Source of the DNA: a virus
Reading direction: 5' to 3' (one strand)
IMG/VR virus record: IMGVR_UViG_3300042465_005814
Coordinates: 1 to 20,033 of that record
DNA: 20,033 bases
Both the position numbers and the translations under genes were made by a program. The first letter of the stretch is position 1. Every line of letters starts with the position of its first letter. This document shows positions 2,103 through 20,033 of this stretch, piece by piece. Under the pieces are notes generated by a model. It saw only the letters and a program-made list of their open reading frames with translations. It searched no databases and was not told where the DNA came from.

Positions 2103-2546
2103 TTATCTCAAATCTTTGTCGGTTATGATTTTAAATTCCCAATTTCTTTCAATTGAGTATTTTGTGGCTGCTTCCCACTTTGCTTGATTGACACCCCATG
2201 TCATTACTTCATTAATGAATCGTCTAGTTGGTTTACCATTGGGTGTGTTTTTTCGAACTGGAGGACGTGTTTGTATGTCCGGCTTGACTTCAATTAACAC
2301 AGATTTTATCTCTCCGTTTTTGTCTTTGTACTTCATCCAGAAATCAACAAAATATCTATGGTATCTATTGTCAACAGGTGACACATACGGCACGACAACT
2401 TCTTCAGAAGACCATTCGAGTATAGATGAAGTCTCATCACAATACACCATGAATCTACGTTCCAACAAACTACGATATGTAATATTAGTTGGGTTACCTT
2501 TGTACTTTTGATAGTTTTTAGGTTTAAATTTACCTTTGTATGACAT
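2103..2546 (-). CDS. 4: Head completion nuclease-like protein, gp4-like
   Basis: A 147-aa protein that resembles the T4 gp4 (50/65) head-completion protein in length (T4 about 150 aa) and pattern: KFKPKNYQKYKGNPTNITYR at the N-terminus, then an SEEVVVPYVSPVDNRYHRYF block at about 47-66. The layout fits a PD-(D/E)xK, TnsA-like nuclease fold, with E29 in the SLLERRF helix, D68 in RYFVDFW and E86/K88 in VLIEVKP. In T4-like phages gp4 acts on filled heads before tail joining. No clear Shine-Dalgarno lies upstream of the ATG. The start is chosen because the N-terminal KGKF.P.N.QKYKG segment aligns with the family and because the divergent gp48 leader begins there. The complementary bases of its start codon form part of the predicted late promoter for gp48. 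Confidence 0.8.
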   Translation of the reverse strand: MSYKGKFKPKNYQKYKGNPTNITYRSLLERRFMVYCDETSSILEWSSEEVVVPYVSPVDNRYHRYFVDFWMKYKDKNGEIKSVLIEVKPDIQTRPPVRKNTPNGKPTRRFINEVMTWGVNQAKWEAATKYSIERNWEFKIITDKDLR

Positions 2547-2551
2547 AAATA
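2544..2551 (+). promoter_or_regulatory. Predicted late promoter CATAAATA for the gp48 operon
   Basis: CATAAATA matches the NATAAATA late-promoter octamer described for marine T4-like phages and differs from the T4 consensus TATAAATA at one base. It lies 28 bases before the gp48 ATG, which leaves room for a leader of about 20 bases containing an AGAAGGAAAG ribosome-binding site. Its first three bases are the complement of the gp4 start codon, so the two divergent genes share this site. Inferred from motif and position. Confidence 0.6.
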
Positions 2552-6119: not shown

Positions 6120-7070
6120 ATGAAACTTAAATTTTCAGAGTATGTAGATTTAAAAGACTACAAAGCAAGTCAACTTGTAGAAAAACAAATTCTCTATAAC
6201 AATGGCGCAAAGTATGGGCAGATTGTGTTCCTTGCTGGTGGCGCAGGCTCTGGCAAAGGATTTGCTGTTCAGCATTTCATGCAAGGCTCTGAGTTTAAAA
6301 TACGTGACGTTGATGAATTGAAGATTGCATTTCAAAAGTTAGATGCGCTTGGTAAATTCACGACACAAGACTTACTTGACAAGTATGGCGACAAGATTTC
6401 TCAAAAAGATAAAGAACTTATCCAAAAAGAATTGACAGACAAAAATTTAAAGATGGGTGAATTGAATCTTAAGACTCCAACTCATGTTTATATTCTACAC
6501 GTTCTCATTCGTGCAACTGACGTAAAGAACAAGACGTTAGACTTGATGCTTGCTGGCGCTGAAAAAGGGCAATTGCCAAATCTTATTTTTGATAGCACAT
6601 TCAAAGAAGTTTCAGACATGACAGATGTTTTGCCAAAACTGTTTGCCGCTGGATATGAACCAAAGAACATTCACGTATCTTGGGTGTTGACTAACTATCA
6701 GATTGCAATCAAGAATAACAAATCAAGAGCAAGAGTTGTGCCAGAAGATATTTTGCTTGCTACTCATGCGGGTGCGGCACAGACTGTATATAACTTAGTA
6801 ACAACAGCTATGCCGCCAACTGTTCAAGGCGGAATTTATGTCATTCTAAATAATCCAGAGAATACAATTTTCATTGTTGATCCGCAAACAAATAAAGCAT
6901 ACAAAGATAAGAAGGGCAATCCTGTTATTAAAGACTTCAAGTATTTGGTACTTAAAGAACCAGGAAAACCTGCTAAGAAAGAACTTGATGTAAAAAAACA
7001 ATTACTCACTTGGATCAAAGACAATGTTCCTCCAGGCGCAGTAGATACATCAGAATTAGACAAGCTATGA
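6120..7070 (+). CDS. P-loop kinase of zeta-toxin/AAA_33 type, in the hub operon
   Basis: A 316-aa soluble protein. A Walker A loop (GGAGSGKG, residues 40-47) follows a hydrophobic strand (IVFLA). A conserved-looking acidic site RDVDELK lies at 62-68, and a strand NLIFDST at 154-160 could be the Walker B or catalytic Asp strand. A basic segment NKSRARVVPEDI at about 200-211 resembles the Arg lid plus VP motif of zeta-toxin and related small-molecule kinases. The substrate cannot be told: nucleotide-sugar, nucleotide and RNA-repair kinases are all possible. The N-terminus MKLKFSEYVDLKDY has the form of short N-terminal peptides on T4-like head-packaged proteins. It lies between gp27 and gp5, where T4 has no such gene. 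The start has an AAGGAAAA site six bases upstream, and its stop overlaps the next gene (ATGA). Confidence 0.75.
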   Translation: MKLKFSEYVDLKDYKASQLVEKQILYNNGAKYGQIVFLAGGAGSGKGFAVQHFMQGSEFKIRDVDELKIAFQKLDALGKFTTQDLLDKYGDKISQKDKELIQKELTDKNLKMGELNLKTPTHVYILHVLIRATDVKNKTLDLMLAGAEKGQLPNLIFDSTFKEVSDMTDVLPKLFAAGYEPKNIHVSWVLTNYQIAIKNNKSRARVVPEDILLATHAGAAQTVYNLVTTAMPPTVQGGIYVILNNPENTIFIVDPQTNKAYKDKKGNPVIKDFKYLVLKEPGKPAKKELDVKKQLLTWIKDNVPPGAVDTSELDKL

Positions 7071-7222
7071 AAAAATTCAAACAGTTTATACAGGGCACTA
7101 CACTTTCGCAAGAAGAGTGGGAAGAAGAAGTTTTTGGTCCAGAATTAATTGAGACACCCGAACAAGTGGGTAGCGAAGACCAAGAAAAAGAAATTCAGCA
7201 TTTGAAGAACATGGGAAATTGA
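7067..7222 (+). CDS. 51-aa acidic protein of unknown function, coupled to kinase and gp5
   Basis: The ATG overlaps the kinase stop (ATGA), and its own stop overlaps the gp5 ATG (TGATG), so it is tightly locked into the operon. A longer frame opening at 7010 exists, but the overlapping ATG at 7067 is the natural start. The 51-aa product has 11 Glu and 1 Asp against 5 Lys and is probably largely helical or disordered. It begins MKKFKQFI, which resembles the N-terminal capsid-targeting peptide of T4 internal head proteins (MKTYQEFIAE in IPIII), but a clear gp21-type cleavage site is missing. It could be a partner or inhibitor of the kinase, a hub-assembly factor, or a packaged peptide. No family is recognised. 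Confidence 0.7.
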   Translation: MKKFKQFIQGTTLSQEEWEEEVFGPELIETPEQVGSEDQEKEIQHLKNMGN

Positions 7223-7848
7223 TGAGAAATTTTATTGGGCAAGATGGGTTTGTTTGGTGGATTGGAGTTGTTGAAGATATCAACGACCCGTTGACGCTGG
7301 GCAGATGCAAAGTGCGATGCTTTGGATATCATCCTGCAAAATCAACTAATCAAGTCCCAACTGAAGACTTACCATTTGCACTATCGATTCATCCTTTAAA
7401 TACTCCAAACCTTTATGCGACACCTAGGGTGGGCGAATGGGTTTTTGGTTTCTTCTTAGATGCGTTGACTGCACAAGAGCCTGCAATTTTAGGATATCTT
7501 CCTGCAATTCCACAAGCCGCCGCAGAGTATTTTGGTGCAACACCTAGTCTAACTAGAAATTTTGCAAGCGTATCTAATAAAAGTGATATTTTATGGGACG
7601 CAAACGGATCAAGCATCAAACTTGGATCTTCAGGTGGTATAAGTATTGTTGCAAACACTCATAGTATAATTACTTCAGACAAAACTCTTACCCTCAATGG
7701 AACAGAAAATTTAGTCCTTACTGATAGCAAAAATGTAACAACTCTTGACCAAATTCTCATTAGAATAAAAGCATTAGAGGACAGATTGAATAGTCCAACA
7801 ACTGAACTAGTACCCAATACATCAATCACAGTTATAACAAATATCTAA
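7222..7848 (+). CDS. 5: Short gp5-like baseplate spike protein with OB domain, no lysozyme
   Basis: A 208-aa protein. Residues 1-100 or so are the gp5 N-terminal OB domain: GFVWWIGVVEDINDPLTLGR, then VRCFGYHP, PTEDLPFALSIHP, GEWVFGFFLDAL and ILGYLPAIPQ. This domain seats the spike trimer on the gp27 hub. T4 gp5 (575 aa) continues with a lysozyme domain and a long beta-helix. Here the lysozyme is absent, and the rest is short: a Gly/Ser-rich beta segment (SSIKLGSSGGISIVANTHSI, LTLNGTENLVLTD) followed by a short coiled-coil-like helix (ILIRIKALEDRL). The phage must therefore breach the wall with another enzyme or by other means. The ATG overlaps the upstream stop; a TTG one codon earlier is possible but less likely. 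Confidence 0.88.
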   Translation: MRNFIGQDGFVWWIGVVEDINDPLTLGRCKVRCFGYHPAKSTNQVPTEDLPFALSIHPLNTPNLYATPRVGEWVFGFFLDALTAQEPAILGYLPAIPQAAAEYFGATPSLTRNFASVSNKSDILWDANGSSIKLGSSGGISIVANTHSIITSDKTLTLNGTENLVLTDSKNVTTLDQILIRIKALEDRLNSPTTELVPNTSITVITNI

Positions 7849-7915
7849 AATCACAGTCTACACAGTAATATAGCATACTGTCAAGCAAAAGTCAACATTT
7901 TATAAGGAAATAATA
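7849..7915 (+). other. 67-base gap before the Hc1-like gene, with small hairpin
   Basis: This is one of the longest non-coding gaps in the window. It holds an inverted repeat ACAGTA-(8 bases)-TACTGT at about 7862-7881, with no T-run behind it, so a rho-independent terminator is unlikely. No NATAAATA octamer is present. An AAGGA site at 7904-7908, eight bases before the ATG, serves the small gene that follows. The hairpin could be an mRNA processing or stability element, or chance. Confidence 0.35.
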
Positions 7916-8092
7916 ATGACAAATCACGAAAACTTAGTAAATTTATTTGAATCATATCTTGCAGAGAGCGCAAAGTTTGACGAAAAAGGAAACAAAGCGG
8001 CTGGCACTAGAGCGAGAAAAGCATTAGCAGAGTTCACTAAAGCCGCAAAAGAACGAAGAAAAGAAATTCAAGACGCAAAAACGGCAGAATAA
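7916..8092 (+). CDS. 58-aa histone H1/Hc1-like basic protein
   Basis: ATG at 7916 with an AAGGA site eight bases upstream; the frame closes with TAA at 8090-8092. The product is a short, wholly helical-looking protein. Residues 20-50 read KFDEKGNKAAGTRARKALAE then FTKAAKERRKE. This matches the core of the Hc1 (bacterial histone H1-like) family, whose chlamydial members carry a GNKAAAQRVRT segment followed by a K/R-rich helix; similar short Hc1-like proteins occur in marine T4-like phages. A DNA-binding or packing role is likely by family. The N-terminal segment MTNHENLVNLFESYLAES contains LAE/S, which fits the T4 gp21 prohead-protease consensus. Removal of residues 1-17 would raise the net charge from about +2 to about +5. 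It sits between gp5 and gp25, outside any known baseplate role. Confidence 0.75.
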   Translation: MTNHENLVNLFESYLAESAKFDEKGNKAAGTRARKALAEFTKAAKERRKEIQDAKTAE

Positions 8093-8096
8093 CAGA

Positions 8097-8104
8097 CATA
8101 AATA
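8097..8104 (+). promoter_or_regulatory. Possible late promoter CATAAATA upstream of gp25
   Basis: CATAAATA fits the NATAAATA late-promoter form and lies in the 22-base gap before gp25. It is only ten bases before the ATG, so a transcript from it would have almost no leader. It may therefore be a weak promoter for downstream genes, or chance in AT-rich DNA. Confidence 0.35.
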
Positions 8105-8114
8105 AAAGAAAAAA

Positions 8115-8498
8115 ATGGCAGATATTGTATTTTATAAAGATTTACCTTTAGATTTCACACCTCATCCTGTGACTGGTGACGTTCGTCCCATCACAAATGA
8201 AGTTGCGATTAAAAGGTCTTTGTCTAATTTAATTAACACACCAAAAGGCACACGTCCATTTATGCCCGACTATGGTAGCAGTGTTAAAAATTATCTGTTC
8301 TCCAGAAATGGCGCATTTACATTATATGAACTTAGAAACAGTCTTAAAATTGACATTGAAAAATATGAAAAACGTATAACTTTAAAAGACATAAAGGTTA
8401 ACTACTCGGATGATGGATTTGATATCAAGTTGGAATATACCATTAAAAATGCGACTGGTATTTCAGGTCTACAAACAACAATCAAGAGGACAGCATAA
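8115..8498 (+). CDS. 25: Baseplate wedge protein gp25
   Basis: A 127-aa protein of the GPW/gp25 family (T4 gp25, 132 aa; the same fold as TssE of type VI secretion). Family marks are the N-terminal FTPHPVTGDV segment, then NEVAIKRSLSNLINTPKGTR at 28-47, continuing PFMPDYGSSVKNYLFS. In most members the core glutamate motif reads EPR or G.R.f.p.fG; here it is KGTRPFMPDYGS. gp25 sits at the inner wedge with gp6 and gp53, where the sheath starts to polymerise. The C-terminal half (RITLKDIKVNYSDDGFDIKL then EYTIK) is the usual beta-sheet. Its stop overlaps the gp6 start (TAATG). Confidence 0.94.
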   Translation: MADIVFYKDLPLDFTPHPVTGDVRPITNEVAIKRSLSNLINTPKGTRPFMPDYGSSVKNYLFSRNGAFTLYELRNSLKIDIEKYEKRITLKDIKVNYSDDGFDIKLEYTIKNATGISGLQTTIKRTA

Positions 8499-14359: not shown

Positions 14360-17300
14360 ATGGCAAATACAAATCCTGGTGGTATAGACTTAGATACCAG
14401 TCCATACTTTGATGATTATGATGAAGAAAAGAAGTTTGTAAGGGTTCTCTATCGTCCTGGACGTGCTGTTCAGGCTAGAGAACTTACACAAGCGCAAACT
14501 CTTCAACAAGTGCAGACTAGACGTTTTGCCGAATATTTTTTCAAGCAAGGCGCACTAGTCGATGGCTGTGAACAAAATCTAGACTTAAATTTAAATTTCG
14601 TAAAACTTCAAACAAACTACAATGGTAGTGCAGTTGCTGTTGCGAATTTATTAGATGAAATTGTCTATGGCGCAAACAGCGGCATCAAAGCATACTGTGG
14701 ATTAGTTACTGATATTGATGGTGATGATCCTAAAACATTGTTCATTAGCTATGCAACAAATGGAACACAAGTTCTTACAGTGAACGTTGCTCCATCTACA
14801 CTCGTATCAGGAAACACAATTACCTTTTCGACAGGTAATACTGCGACAATTGAAGCATATTACACAGATCCAATTTCTGGTGTAAATAAAATCTTTGTTT
14901 CAAACACAACCGGAATATTAACTGCAACAACTGCAAACACAGTATTAAGCACCGGTGCAACTCAAATAATTAACGTAACAAATGTTTCAGACCAAAGTGC
15001 AAATACTGCATTTGCCAACTCAGAAACTATTTTTACAGCAAACACAACAGCTAGATCATATGCGTTGGCAGCGGCAACAAATGCAGTAAGAAATGTTGTT
15101 GACGAAGGTCTCGCAACACAGCAAGTATATAACTACGGCTCTAAGATTACTGTTTCTGAAGGTGTTGTATATGTTGCAGACCATTTTGTTAAACATTCAT
15201 CACAAACAATTATTCTCGACAAGTATACAAACGAACCTTCTTATAGAATTGGATTAGTTCCAAATAAATCTTTTGTTGATTACATTGAAGATCAAACTCT
15301 TGTTGATAATGCACAGGGCACACCAAACTTTCAAGCTCCTGGTGCAGACAGATTAAAAATTGATACAACTCTAACAAAAATTGCGTTAGATGCAACTACT
15401 GATGAAAATGAATTCATCACAATTACAGAAATTGAAGATGGTGTTGCTAGAAAAAGAAAAACAATTACTGTTGATAGTAAACTAGAAGATGTTTTAGCAA
15501 AACGAACACAAGAAGAATCTGGCAACTACACGCTGTCTGATCCTATTGTTTATGTTCGTGAACATTTAACAACAACTGGAACCGATACTGGTGTATTTAC
15601 TTCTGCCGAAGGCGGCAACTCAGATTTGCTTGTAGTTGAAGTTGATCCATTCACATCATATGTGTCTGGATATAGAAATCAAATTATTATAAAAACACAA
15701 ATTGAAGTAGAGAAGGGTCTAGACACACAATATGTAAATGCAACAACAACTCAAATTAACTATGGACAATATATTGAAGTTAAAGAGTTAGTTGGTGCAT
15801 GGGACATTATGGAATCAACTCCTGTTGATCTGTATGATACACCACAACAAGTTATTACAAATTTAACACACTCTACTGCAACAGTAGCAGGTAGTGCAAT
15901 TGGTACTGCTAGGGTGCGTTCAATTGAATATGTTGATGGTGTCAAAGGCACAGCATCCGCAAAGTATAAGTTATACTTATATGAAATCACGATGATTGCG
16001 GGTAAAACATTTTCTCAAGTTCGTGCGATATATGATTCTGCAACACCACAACGTTTTGCTGATATTGTAACAACTACCGCTGGCGCTGTTTTACAAGAAA
16101 CGTCTTTTGATACAATGATTTTCCCATTGCCATATAAGGCAATTAAAACTGTACGTGATTTATCAGAAAATGTTGACACTTCTTTCAGATTTAAAAAGAA
16201 ATTTACTGTTTCATTCTCTTCTGGTGTTGCTACTGTCGCCACTGACGCTGTTACAGAATCGTTTGTTGGTACGGGCGCATTGAGTTCAACTCAGAAAAAT
16301 GATTTTTACATGGTTGTTGTAAATAATGCTGGCGCAAACGTAGAAACTTCTGCGTTGACTGGCACTGTTACTGTAGGGGCAGCAAACACTACTGTTATCG
16401 GCACTGGCACACTATTTACATCACAATACAATGTAGGTGATCTAATTAAAATTGGATCAACTACTACGCATAGAATTGAATCTATTGCAAGTGCTACGGC
16501 ACTAACTTTAGCATCGGCACACGGCGCAGGTGCTAGTAGTGTTGCACACACAAAAATTATACCAACAGGAACCGTGTTGTCTCTTTCTGCTAATGGCGGA
16601 AAAGGAAGCACACGAACAGTTGACGTTACTTCTCAAGGTACTGTATCTATTGATGTTCAAGAAAATGCAACATTTACTGCTGATGTTATAGTGTCGATGG
16701 ATAGAGCAAATGCTAGAGAGAAAGTTAAAACATTAAGTTTTCAAACACAAACAAATATTAATCCAAACACGCATATTAGTGGGTTGTCTGGACCATTTGG
16801 GTTAGGTGTTGGTGATATCTATCGCTTACATGCTGTTTATCAGTCATCGTCATTCGCAGTTGCCGCTACTACAGCAAACACAAACGTTACTGCAAATTAT
16901 ATATTGGACAATGGACAACGTGACTATGCATACGAACACGGAACAATTACACCAATTGTAGGTTATGTTCCAACAGGTAGATTGTTAGCAGTCTTTGACA
17001 ACTTTGTACACGATACATCTCAAGGTGTTGGTTATGCGTCAGTTGACTCTTATCCAATCGATGATGATATATCATCAAATACTACAATCACAACTGGTGA
17101 CATTCCTACATTCACAAGTCCTACATCTAAGAGAATTTTTAGTCTTCGTGATTCTATTGACTTTAGACCGATTAAAACGGCAAACACATCTTTGAATCCT
17201 ATTGATGTTGGCACATATCAAGTACCTACTTTTGGTCTTCGTGTTCCACAACCAAATTCAGACTTTGATGCAGACTTGATTTACTACAAAGGTAGAGTTT

Positions 17301-20033
17301 CAAAAGTATACATCAACAATGCTGGCGTATTCGGCATCAATGATGGTGTGCCTGCACAAGCTGGTAATCAACGAGCAGAATCTCCGCCAACAAAACCAGA
17401 TACTCTAGAGATTGCAGAATTAACTATTCCAGCATATCCATCTCTGCCATCTGATGTTCAAATCAAACTATTGAAGAACAAGCGTTTTACAATGCGTGAA
17501 GTTGCACGTATGAATGAAAGACTCGAAAGACTTGAGTATTTTACTGCACTAAGTTTCTTAGAAAAACAAGCAACAGACACAACAGAATTGGATAATGATG
17601 GTTTAGATAGATTCAAGAACGGTATTCTTGTTGACCCGTTCACGGGTTGGTCAGTAGCATCTACAACTAACGGTGGTAAAGATTGTGCTATCGATGAGAC
17701 AAATAGGTTCTTAACAGCTAAACAAGAAAACACAAAAACTGTAGGACTGCGTTACTCAACTACGGGAACAACTACTTCAACAGCGCAACTGCAAACTGGT
17801 AACAAAATTATGTTGCCGTATACTGAAGTTGAAGCACCTGGTCTAAAACAACAATACGCATCTAGACAACTAAGACTTGCTGAAGAATTAAACTTTATCT
17901 GGACTGGCGACTTATCAGTCATGCCGTTTGGCGACACATTCTTTGAAACAGAAAACGTGCCTAGTCTGGCGCAAGTTTACAATGATGACCAAGGCGCAGA
18001 CAATTGGAGAGCATTGACAGAGGCATGGAACACAGAGGTTGCGCCATTAAATCAACGTTGGCTTGGCAGCCCAACCGCAGTAGATACACAGCAACAAACA
18101 ACGCAACAAGGCAATCAAATTGTCACTACAGCACTACGCACGGTGACACAAGAAGCATTCAATAGAATTGCAACTGGTAGTCAACCAGCATCAAGTAAAC
18201 AAGAAGTTTCTTTTGACAGAGTTGTGAGTGTAGAAGTTGCGCTATGGATGCGTCAACGTGAATTTGTAATTTATGCTAAAGGTCTGAAAAACAACGCTAG
18301 AGTTTACGCATTTTTTGATGGCGTTAATGTTACGGCAAATTGTTTCCAGATTCAATTGTTGGGTACTTCTACTCTACAGACATTGAATAAATTTGCTCCC
18401 AATGCTAATACTGGAATCATCGAATTGAGTGATCAGGACATTACTTGGAAAGCAATTGCTGATGGTGCAAACACTTCACAGCCACTTATTGTTAAAAACG
18501 GTGAAATCTATTTGTTGTTTGAAGTGCCAAAACATAAATTCTATACTGGCCAACGTGAGTTTAAAATTACAGACAGTCCTACAAACTCAGAAGGCACAAC
18601 GCTAACAAGTGCAAGAAATATCATCACTTCACAGGGTGTTTTGCAAAAGACTGCACAGTTTTCGATTAACACTAGACCATTTACTAATTTATCATTTAAC
18701 ACACAGCGATCTTTAGGTAGAAGAACTGTTTCATCTGAGCGGGTTGAAACTGGAAGAGTGACTATACCACCTCCACCTCCACCACAAAATTGGGATCCAT
18801 TATCACAGAGTTTCTATGTTGATCCAAATACATTTGAAAAAGGCATGTTTTTAACTTCTATTGATTTATTCTTTAGAACAAAGTCACAATCAAATACAGC
18901 ATATGTTACGATTGAAATACGTGAACTTGACAATGGATTTCCATCGCCAGAATTAATTAGTGATGGAGACAATGCGGTTGTTAACAATCCAGATATCAAT
19001 GTAAGCCAAAACGCATCAACTGCAACTAAATTTACATTTAAAAATCCTATCTTTCTGAGTCCTGGTGTTGATTACTGCTTTACGGTTAAGCCGTCAAACA
19101 ATGATCCTGATTTTGCACTTTGGGTTGCTGAGTTGGGTGCAATAGATATTACAGAACCAGACAAACAAACTAGAATTGAATCTGCATACAATAGTGGTGT
19201 TCTATTTTCATCGTCTAATGACAAAACTTGGACTGTAAAGCAAAACGTTGATATGAAGTTTAATATGAGAGTCGCACAATTTGATACGACTACTTCTAAA
19301 GTTGCTTTCTGGAATAACACTCCGATAACTACTGCTATAACATATGATGCACTAACACCAATGATTGCTGATGTGGTTCTTGCAGGAACTAATATCAACT
19401 ATGAAATTAAAACTTCTGATAATACTCTAGCAGTTGACGAAGATTTTACTGCAATTAAAAAATATGAAAGATTAGTATTGCGTTCTAGAAAACAGATTTC
19501 TACAAGCGCATCGGAAACAGCGGGCGGCATTAAATCTTTGTTGGTAAAAGCAACATTGTCTACGACAAACAAGTTTATCAGTCCATATATTGATAACGAA
19601 AAAATTGAGTTTCACTTTGATAAAAACGTTATCAATAATTTAGACAGCACAGCAGTAAGCGGAACAGTCACATATAGTTCTGGCAATAACATTGTTGTTG
19701 GTACTGGTACAACTTTTACGACACAAGTATTCCCTGGTGAATATGCATACTTCGGTGACGAATATCGTAGAGTTTCTTCAATAACAAGTAACACAGTTTT
19801 AACTGTTACAAATAACTTTACTACATCAAATGCAGTCAGTCAAGCAATGACTATTCGCAATGAAGAAAGTCCAACAGGACCATATTCTTCAGAGTCTAGA
19901 TACATCACTAAAGTTGTGACGTTGAATGACGGATTTGAAGCCGCAGATTTAGTTACTTATTTGAAAATCAATCGTCCACCAGGAACTTCAATTAAAGTTT
20001 ACTGTAAGCTATTGAACGAAAACGACACAGATG
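14360..20033 (+). CDS. Giant DUF4815-type tail/baseplate structural protein, partial
   Basis: Open from ATG at 14360 to the right edge: 1891 complete codons with no stop. The start DLDTSPYFDDYDEEKKFVRV then LYRPGRAVQARELTQAQTLQ is the signature of DUF4815 proteins of marine T4-like phages. At about 970-1090 come YYKGRVSKVYI, IPAYPSLPSDV, then KRFTMREVARMNERLERLEY followed by FTALSFLEK, also typical. Further on are ARVYAFFDGVNVTANC (near 1312), a six-proline linker (1470-1475) leading into NWDPLSQSFYVDPNTFEKGM, and a LSPGVDYCFTVKPS segment. Two copies of a VxGTGTxFT...GD module lie near 668-725 and 1767-1817. The place after gp8 is where T4 has gp9-gp10-gp11-gp12, so a peripheral wedge, pin or fibre-attachment role is likely; its exact role is not known to me. 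The missing 3' end prevents a fibre-tip call. Confidence 0.82.
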   Translation, partial: MANTNPGGIDLDTSPYFDDYDEEKKFVRVLYRPGRAVQARELTQAQTLQQVQTRRFAEYFFKQGALVDGCEQNLDLNLNFVKLQTNYNGSAVAVANLLDEIVYGANSGIKAYCGLVTDIDGDDPKTLFISYATNGTQVLTVNVAPSTLVSGNTITFSTGNTATIEAYYTDPISGVNKIFVSNTTGILTATTANTVLSTGATQIINVTNVSDQSANTAFANSETIFTANTTARSYALAAATNAVRNVVDEGLATQQVYNYGSKITVSEGVVYVADHFVKHSSQTIILDKYTNEPSYRIGLVPNKSFVDYIEDQTLVDNAQGTPNFQAPGADRLKIDTTLTKIALDATTDENEFITITEIEDGVARKRKTITVDSKLEDVLAKRTQEESGNYTLSDPIVYVREHLTTTGTDTGVFTSAEGGNSDLLVVEVDPFTSYVSGYRNQIIIKTQIEVEKGLDTQYVNATTTQINYGQYIEVKELVGAWDIMESTPVDLYDTPQQVITNLTHSTATVAGSAIGTARVRSIEYVDGVKGTASAKYKLYLYEITMIAGKTFSQVRAIYDSATPQRFADIVTTTAGAVLQETSFDTMIFPLPYKAIKTVRDLSENVDTSFRFKKKFTVSFSSGVATVATDAVTESFVGTGALSSTQKNDFYMVVVNNAGANVETSALTGTVTVGAANTTVIGTGTLFTSQYNVGDLIKIGSTTTHRIESIASATALTLASAHGAGASSVAHTKIIPTGTVLSLSANGGKGSTRTVDVTSQGTVSIDVQENATFTADVIVSMDRANAREKVKTLSFQTQTNINPNTHISGLSGPFGLGVGDIYRLHAVYQSSSFAVAATTANTNVTANYILDNGQRDYAYEHGTITPIVGYVPTGRLLAVFDNFVHDTSQGVGYASVDSYPIDDDISSNTTITTGDIPTFTSPTSKRIFSLRDSIDFRPIKTANTSLNPIDVGTYQVPTFGLRVPQPNSDFDADLIYYKGRVSKVYINNAGVFGINDGVPAQAGNQRAESPPTKPDTLEIAELTIPAYPSLPSDVQIKLLKNKRFTMREVARMNERLERLEYFTALSFLEKQATDTTELDNDGLDRFKNGILVDPFTGWSVASTTNGGKDCAIDETNRFLTAKQENTKTVGLRYSTTGTTTSTAQLQTGNKIMLPYTEVEAPGLKQQYASRQLRLAEELNFIWTGDLSVMPFGDTFFETENVPSLAQVYNDDQGADNWRALTEAWNTEVAPLNQRWLGSPTAVDTQQQTTQQGNQIVTTALRTVTQEAFNRIATGSQPASSKQEVSFDRVVSVEVALWMRQREFVIYAKGLKNNARVYAFFDGVNVTANCFQIQLLGTSTLQTLNKFAPNANTGIIELSDQDITWKAIADGANTSQPLIVKNGEIYLLFEVPKHKFYTGQREFKITDSPTNSEGTTLTSARNIITSQGVLQKTAQFSINTRPFTNLSFNTQRSLGRRTVSSERVETGRVTIPPPPPPQNWDPLSQSFYVDPNTFEKGMFLTSIDLFFRTKSQSNTAYVTIEIRELDNGFPSPELISDGDNAVVNNPDINVSQNASTATKFTFKNPIFLSPGVDYCFTVKPSNNDPDFALWVAELGAIDITEPDKQTRIESAYNSGVLFSSSNDKTWTVKQNVDMKFNMRVAQFDTTTSKVAFWNNTPITTAITYDALTPMIADVVLAGTNINYEIKTSDNTLAVDEDFTAIKKYERLVLRSRKQISTSASETAGGIKSLLVKATLSTTNKFISPYIDNEKIEFHFDKNVINNLDSTAVSGTVTYSSGNNIVVGTGTTFTTQVFPGEYAYFGDEYRRVSSITSNTVLTVTNNFTTSNAVSQAMTIRNEESPTGPYSSESRYITKVVTLNDGFEAADLVTYLKINRPPGTSIKVYCKLLNENDTD
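16363..16530 (+). repeat. First VxGTGTxF...VGD module in the DUF4815 gene
   Basis: Encodes GTVTVGAANTTVIGTGTLFT followed by SQYNVGDLIKIG, then HRIESIASATALTLASA. The pattern (strand, GTGTxFT, 6-8 residues, G-D or G-E, strand, SI-x-S-x-T-x-LT) recurs near 19660-19810 in the same protein and in the C-terminus of gp7. It is a protein-level repeat. Confidence 0.6.
19660..19812 (+). repeat. Second GTGTTF...PGE module in the DUF4815 gene
   Basis: Encodes SGTVTYSSGNNIVVGTGTTF followed by TTQVFPGEYAYFG, then YRRVSSITSNTVLTVTN. It closely follows the first copy about 1100 residues upstream and shares its final SI-x-S-x-T-x-LT strand. Confidence 0.6.

Follow-up and report, generated by a model that had tools for sequence, protein, structure and literature searches.

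The window analysed here, a 20,033-bp IMG/VR virus record (IMGVR_UViG_3300042465_005814), encodes a 58-aa Hc1-domain protein within its T4-type baseplate locus, and directly beside that gene a conserved sigma-70-type promoter sequence faces the opposite way, into the gp5-like gene. The explanation that best accounts for both, which we put forward as plausible but still tentative, treats them as separate neighbours: Hc1 as an unprocessed phage nucleoid protein, and the adjoining element as an early antisense promoter whose RNA may serve as an origin primer.

An Hc1-family gene in a T4-type baseplate locus

The reading frame at 7916-8092 is a real gene, and it lies among genes in T4 baseplate order. 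Profile matches place gp2 and gp4 on the minus strand and, in order on the plus strand, a tube-cap gene, gp53, the gp5-like gene, hc1, gp25 and gp6, bearing out the initial annotation, which had set hc1 in a baseplate unit. The gene and its flanks comprise:

7219-7848, plus strand: gp5-like baseplate hub gene with an OB domain (phrog_430/694/1922)
7904-7909, plus strand: Shine-Dalgarno-like AAGGAA of hc1
7916-8092, plus strand: hc1, ATG start, 58-aa Hc1-domain protein, translation MTNHENLVNLFESYLAESAKFDEKGNKAAGTRARKALAEFTKAAKERRKEIQDAKTAE
7958-7969, plus strand: codons for LAES (residues 15-18), a proposed cleavage site judged not to be a conserved protease site
8115-8498, plus strand: gp25 baseplate wedge gene (phrog_261, E 7.6e-32; phrog_43, E 3e-17)

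The 58-aa product almost certainly belongs to the Hc1 family, as first proposed from its GNKAAGTRARKA core (residues 25-36). It matched PF07432 (Hc1) with an E-value of 8.4e-17 and 61.2 bits against a cut-off of 23.5, covering model positions 1-56 of 57, and T31-L37 (the TRARKA core) is invariant among 28 phage Hc1 proteins. Homologues were found in ~370 fetched loci. They occur in hundreds of aquatic phage contigs and in a few named phages: two marine single-cell phages and S-SRM01, whose gene carries the annotation 'histone H1'. One contig filed under Pacearchaeota (L086) encodes an Hc1 identical to that of a viral contig (L079) and is probably a misbinned phage.

AlphaFold2 predicted a helical hairpin for the protein (helices 3-24 and 27-56, mean pLDDT 94.6). 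Fold comparison of this model returned only generic two-helix hairpins, none with E < 0.001, and a sequence search found no related solved structure. The whole protein is close to neutral, with 12 K+R against 10 D+E, and the Lys-rich tail that some cellular relatives have is absent, which makes its binding to DNA uncertain. Chlamydial HctA (NF051889) has the same PF07432 core, but the phage protein has only 58 aa, has no Lys/Ala-rich C-terminal tail and fell far below the HctA equivalog cut-off (19.8 vs 100 bits, matching only model positions 9-53 of 121). An earlier report describes Hc1 in moraphages (PMC12619734), and phages were thus already known to carry the family. The moraphage protein and the S-SRM01 'histone H1' belong to the same Pfam family and likewise come from large aquatic T4-like or jumbo phages, whereas hc1 of the window's type is fixed between gp5 and gp25 beside the counter-oriented promoter; the S-SRM01 gene has a different genomic place.

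Other plus-strand frames in the window were also noted. Positions 6120-7070, in the baseplate cluster, encode a 316-aa protein with a P-loop-like GGAGSGKG, whose sole match was phrog_5268 (function unknown). An open frame at 14360-20032, at least 1891 codons long, runs past the end of the record and is probably a giant structural gene.

A putative counter-oriented promoter beside hc1

Side-by-side comparison of the gaps upstream of hc1 revealed a conserved opposite-strand TTGACA-17-TATAAT directed from hc1 into gp5, so that a minus-strand RNA from it would run against the gp5-like gene. The window's copy, identified from sequence and conservation, has these parts:

7890-7895, minus strand: -35 hexamer TTGACT of the counter-oriented sigma-70-type promoter
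7867-7872, minus strand: -10 hexamer TATATT, after a 17-bp spacer
7843-7866, minus strand: start-of-transcript region ACTGTGTAGACTGTGATTTTAGAT, related to those in other clusters and at the gp55 site

This copy scores 10/12, and ten further sites in the 20 kb score the same, so a single copy proves nothing and conservation carries the case. For the statistics, upstream regions were clustered at 68% identity and the median score per cluster was used; expected counts were derived by tiling control windows across the same loci, and clusters defined in this way are not fully independent. Among 35 clusters with hc1-gp25 synteny, 22 scored at least 10/12 against 1.8 expected (binomial P 4e-20), 15 scored at least 11/12 against 0.18 expected, and five were perfect against 0.04 expected. 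The forward strand of the syntenic upstream regions had no comparable excess. Reverse-strand scores of 11 or more occurred in 0/33 viral hc1 clusters without gp25 downstream and at no cellular hc1. When spacers of 10-26 bp were scanned, 15 of 18 strong sites fell at 16-17 bp, as sigma-70 requires. Taken on sequence grounds, the antisense promoter is very probably real.

The remaining 13/35 syntenic clusters carry no such promoter, and several of these have a very short gap before hc1 or an intervening small gene. The promoter was also absent from distant gp25 loci without hc1, suggesting that it may move together with hc1 and not belong to the locus as such. A Pho box was considered, as the double GTCAA at 7880-7895 resembles one; a sigma-70 promoter is favoured because of the 16-17 bp spacing to the -10 hexamer and because the inner repeat is lost in other clusters. 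In the window's own clade the promoter spacers at hc1 and at gp55 (e.g. L404) each contain a second TTGACA, set 11-12 bp from the first.

What the promoter would produce was judged from the sequence behind it. In 21 of 22 clusters the 250 nt behind it contained no open reading frame led by a Shine-Dalgarno sequence, arguing against service to a small gene, and a terminator-like hairpin occurred in 1/22, arguing against a terminated small RNA. Since frames and terminators of this kind are almost always missing, the expected transcript is an antisense RNA that codes for nothing. The signal for a conserved hairpin where this RNA would begin was weak (P 0.02 for one group and 0.09 for all). At the start of infection the promoter could be used by host RNA polymerase, yielding a non-coding RNA antisense to gp5.

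Similar sites recur elsewhere in long sibling records. A matrix that combined the hc1 promoters with 24 nt of sequence at the transcript start gave three outliers in the 133-kb record G002, at 32.4, 29.5 and 26.7 bits, against 14.6 for the next site and a shuffled maximum of 12.6. All three oppose the coding strand: one at hc1, where a high score is expected because the site comes from the training family, and two outside the training set, one before a cytidyltransferase-like gene, the other within uvsW. The third promoter of this class in G002 (22726; ~2726 in L382) is flanked by two genes whose matches fall on different parts of phrog_455, a cytidyltransferase-related family. In the 150-kb G003 a counter-oriented site precedes gp55, downstream of uvsY-uvsW. 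Across gp55 loci (n=80), such a site, beside uvsW and with a CTGTGT-like start, was present in 10/12 clusters against 0.4 expected (P 1.5e-13). UvsW is Pfam-confirmed in G002 and G003, gp55 gave a weak sigma-70 region-2 match, and the names uvsY, gp46 and gp47 derive from sequence and gene order alone. The hc1-site matrix score is not far above shuffled maxima in the window and G003, and the class is best defined in G002.

Possible origin priming or early silencing by the antisense RNA

The position of the promoter recalls T4 oriE. In the T4 annotation, oriE is at 79355 on the minus strand and its primer RNA is complementary to the gene 5 transcript; oriE apparently depends on an early-mode promoter (PMC3016281). 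Our scan of T4 antisense to gene 5 found TTGATG-17-TATAAT from 79377, at the annotated origin. Both systems thus have, close to the strand switch between gp4 and gp53, a minus-strand sigma-70-type promoter whose RNA would be antisense to gene 5, but the window's promoter sits just past gp5 and not within it. They differ as well in that an evenly spaced array of 12-nt T4-type iterons was not found in window 7100-8120. The antisense genes repEA/repEB of oriE were not found either, as far as Shine-Dalgarno-led frames within 250 nt of the promoter show (one such frame in 22 clusters). T4 origins have no common sequence motif, and the use of R-loops by T4 origins other than oriF and oriG is a listed open question (PMC3016281). 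GC skew was uninformative as an origin signal, tracking gene orientation.

The antisense gene-5 RNA of T4 is proposed to prime replication of the leading strand. By analogy, the window's antisense RNA would do so at an origin like oriE, and the element may work in the same manner as oriE. Origin priming is the most likely role we can assign to this RNA, at a confidence that stays tentative. Within our combined explanation, Hc1 membership, synteny, promoter conservation and spacing, the recurrence of the class at gp55 and the lack of a frame or terminator behind the promoter in most clusters are read directly from the sequences, and from them we infer transcription from the promoter and its priming role.

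The same promoter could instead produce an early regulatory antisense RNA unconnected with an origin, which would keep late genes off until late transcription begins; gp5 and its neighbours would be its targets here, and uvsW at the second locus. This is a possibility we regard as somewhat doubtful, and it has several points in its favour. The counter-oriented sites in the long records oppose late-type or regulated genes, including the one inside uvsW in G002, and T4 UvsW, which unwinds origin R-loops, is itself made from a late promoter (PMC3016281). T4-type late promoters lie within 200 nt upstream of hc1 in 16/35 gp25-linked clusters, against 3/53 others. Antisense RNA also has a precedent in a T4-like phage, CfrI of cyanophage S-PM2 (PMC2984593), although CfrI differs in its locus, which is psbA and a homing endonuclease. 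Silencing leaves unexplained, however, why the end of gp5 in particular should be the target and why the site matches the position of T4 oriE.

Role of Hc1 and meaning of the locus

Two late promoters of T4 type bear on when the window's hc1 would be expressed:

2544-2551, plus strand: nearest coding-strand T4-type late promoter upstream of hc1, candidate driver of the unit ending with hc1
8097-8104, plus strand: T4-type late promoter CATAAATA between hc1 and gp25, matching the NATAAATA consensus

The consensus is that of late promoters in cyanomyoviruses (PMC2984593). In the window's clade hc1 probably closes a late unit as its final gene, and from these promoter matches late expression of the window's copy is plausible. 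In other phages hc1 lies near nrdA/nrdB, a single-strand binding protein gene, phoH or an SbcC-like gene, and three clusters outside baseplate loci (L355, L367 and L379) have a perfect forward TTGACA-17-TATAAT upstream of hc1, where hc1 is probably an early gene. These neighbours and promoters seem to us to fit intracellular DNA handling better than head maturation. We therefore favour Hc1 as a small, unprocessed nucleoid-associated protein that would act on intracellular phage DNA and not as a head protein matured by gp21; its DNA binding and late expression are parts of this explanation that we infer. Beyond the works cited here, we found no paper that treats the function of Hc1 in phages or an antisense promoter at gp5/hc1.

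Hc1 could also serve host takeover, by compacting or silencing the nucleoid of the host. Hc1 in E. coli, according to work cited in PMC12619734, is reported to lower DNA and protein synthesis, and the perfect forward promoters of the three non-baseplate clusters mean that the gene may be early there. The window's group, however, is without a strong forward sigma-70 promoter, its hc1 probably sits in a late unit, which would be late for host shut-off, and the protein is missing the Lys-rich tail of some cellular relatives, making this role unlikely.

The initial annotation had proposed instead that Hc1 is a head-packaged basic peptide, cut by the gp21 prohead protease at LAE/S. Its description of the sequence was accurate: LAES is present at residues 15-18, and a cut after residue 17 would take away three Glu, the remaining 41 aa containing 12 K+R against 7 D+E. 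The hypothesis is also fairly testable, since gp21 and gp23 are encoded in three long sibling records, the 20,033-bp window being too short to show them. G003 carries both the gp21 protease (PF03420) and gp23, and the gp23 maturation site, placed by T4 analogy, reads LSE/T in G003 and LGE/A in two other records. A 17-aa leader would be of a suitable length, since the capsid-targeting propeptides of T4 have 10-20 residues (PMC5694885), and the late promoters upstream of hc1 in 16 of the 35 baseplate clusters would suit a head protein.

Conservation, structure and base rate nevertheless rule against the site. Of 58 distinct relatives, 44 have N and 14 have S at residue 18, and (L/I)xE(A/S/G) fits nine, so the alignment of relatives did not uphold LAES as a conserved site. 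In a wider set of distinct proteins the pattern fits 21/94 baseplate-linked orthologues, which does not support a cut at E17/S18, 23/36 viral proteins from outside baseplate loci, which gives processing some residual support, and 0/24 proteins of cellular genomes. The G003 Hc1 (L020), 95% identical to the window's, reads LAEN. Glu17 itself occurs in nearly all phage Hc1 proteins and in 13/24 from cellular genomes, several of whose genes lie amid chromosomal genes (dapF, thiG, isocitrate/isopropylmalate dehydrogenase, Sua5, ABC-type ATPases), marking it as a feature of the family and not of phages. LAES falls in the middle of predicted helix 3-24, which a cut at 17/18 would break; in this model the residues first taken for a maturation site are a feature of the helix. 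Tetrads of this kind are also common: the main proteins of the window show L-x-E-[A/S/G] with a frequency of 0.0022 per residue, a rate at which ~11% of proteins 58 aa long can be expected to carry one by chance, and one arises in 17% of shuffles of Hc1, which itself bears two (LFES at 10-13 and LAES at 15-18).

LFES is a weak alternative site, with [LI]xE[ASG] fitting 20/94 baseplate-linked, 3/36 other viral and 0/24 cellular proteins; at this position 73/94 baseplate-linked proteins fit only with T allowed at the final residue. The capsid-targeted, gp21-cut T4 internal proteins and Alt resemble Hc1 in having an N-terminal (L/I)xE/S-type tetrad at a similar distance, but the Hc1 tetrad is unconserved and lies in a predicted helix, and the domain is common to non-phage proteins. 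Hc1 is in all likelihood not a conserved gp21 substrate, and its maturation into a packaged head peptide is very improbable. A 51-aa ORF directly upstream of gp5 (7067-7222, plus strand, within the listed ORF 7010-7222), which starts MKKFKQFIQG, resembles a capsid-targeting leader more than the Hc1 N-terminus does.

For the known Hc1 family the protein means additional members; the promoter is of greater consequence. The broader view it suggests, which we rate as possible but rather doubtful, is that uncultured aquatic T4-like phages have a dedicated class of counter-oriented host-type promoters with related starts, at two or three sites per genome (hc1 at gp5/gp25; uvsW/gp55), making non-coding primer RNAs for R-loop origins. 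Initiation of the oriE type would then be ancient and recognisable by sequence in the T4 superfamily, with a mini-histone gene placed directly against one origin. If this is true, the antisense promoter at the oriE position and at uvsW/gp55 would make origins predictable across aquatic T4-like phages.
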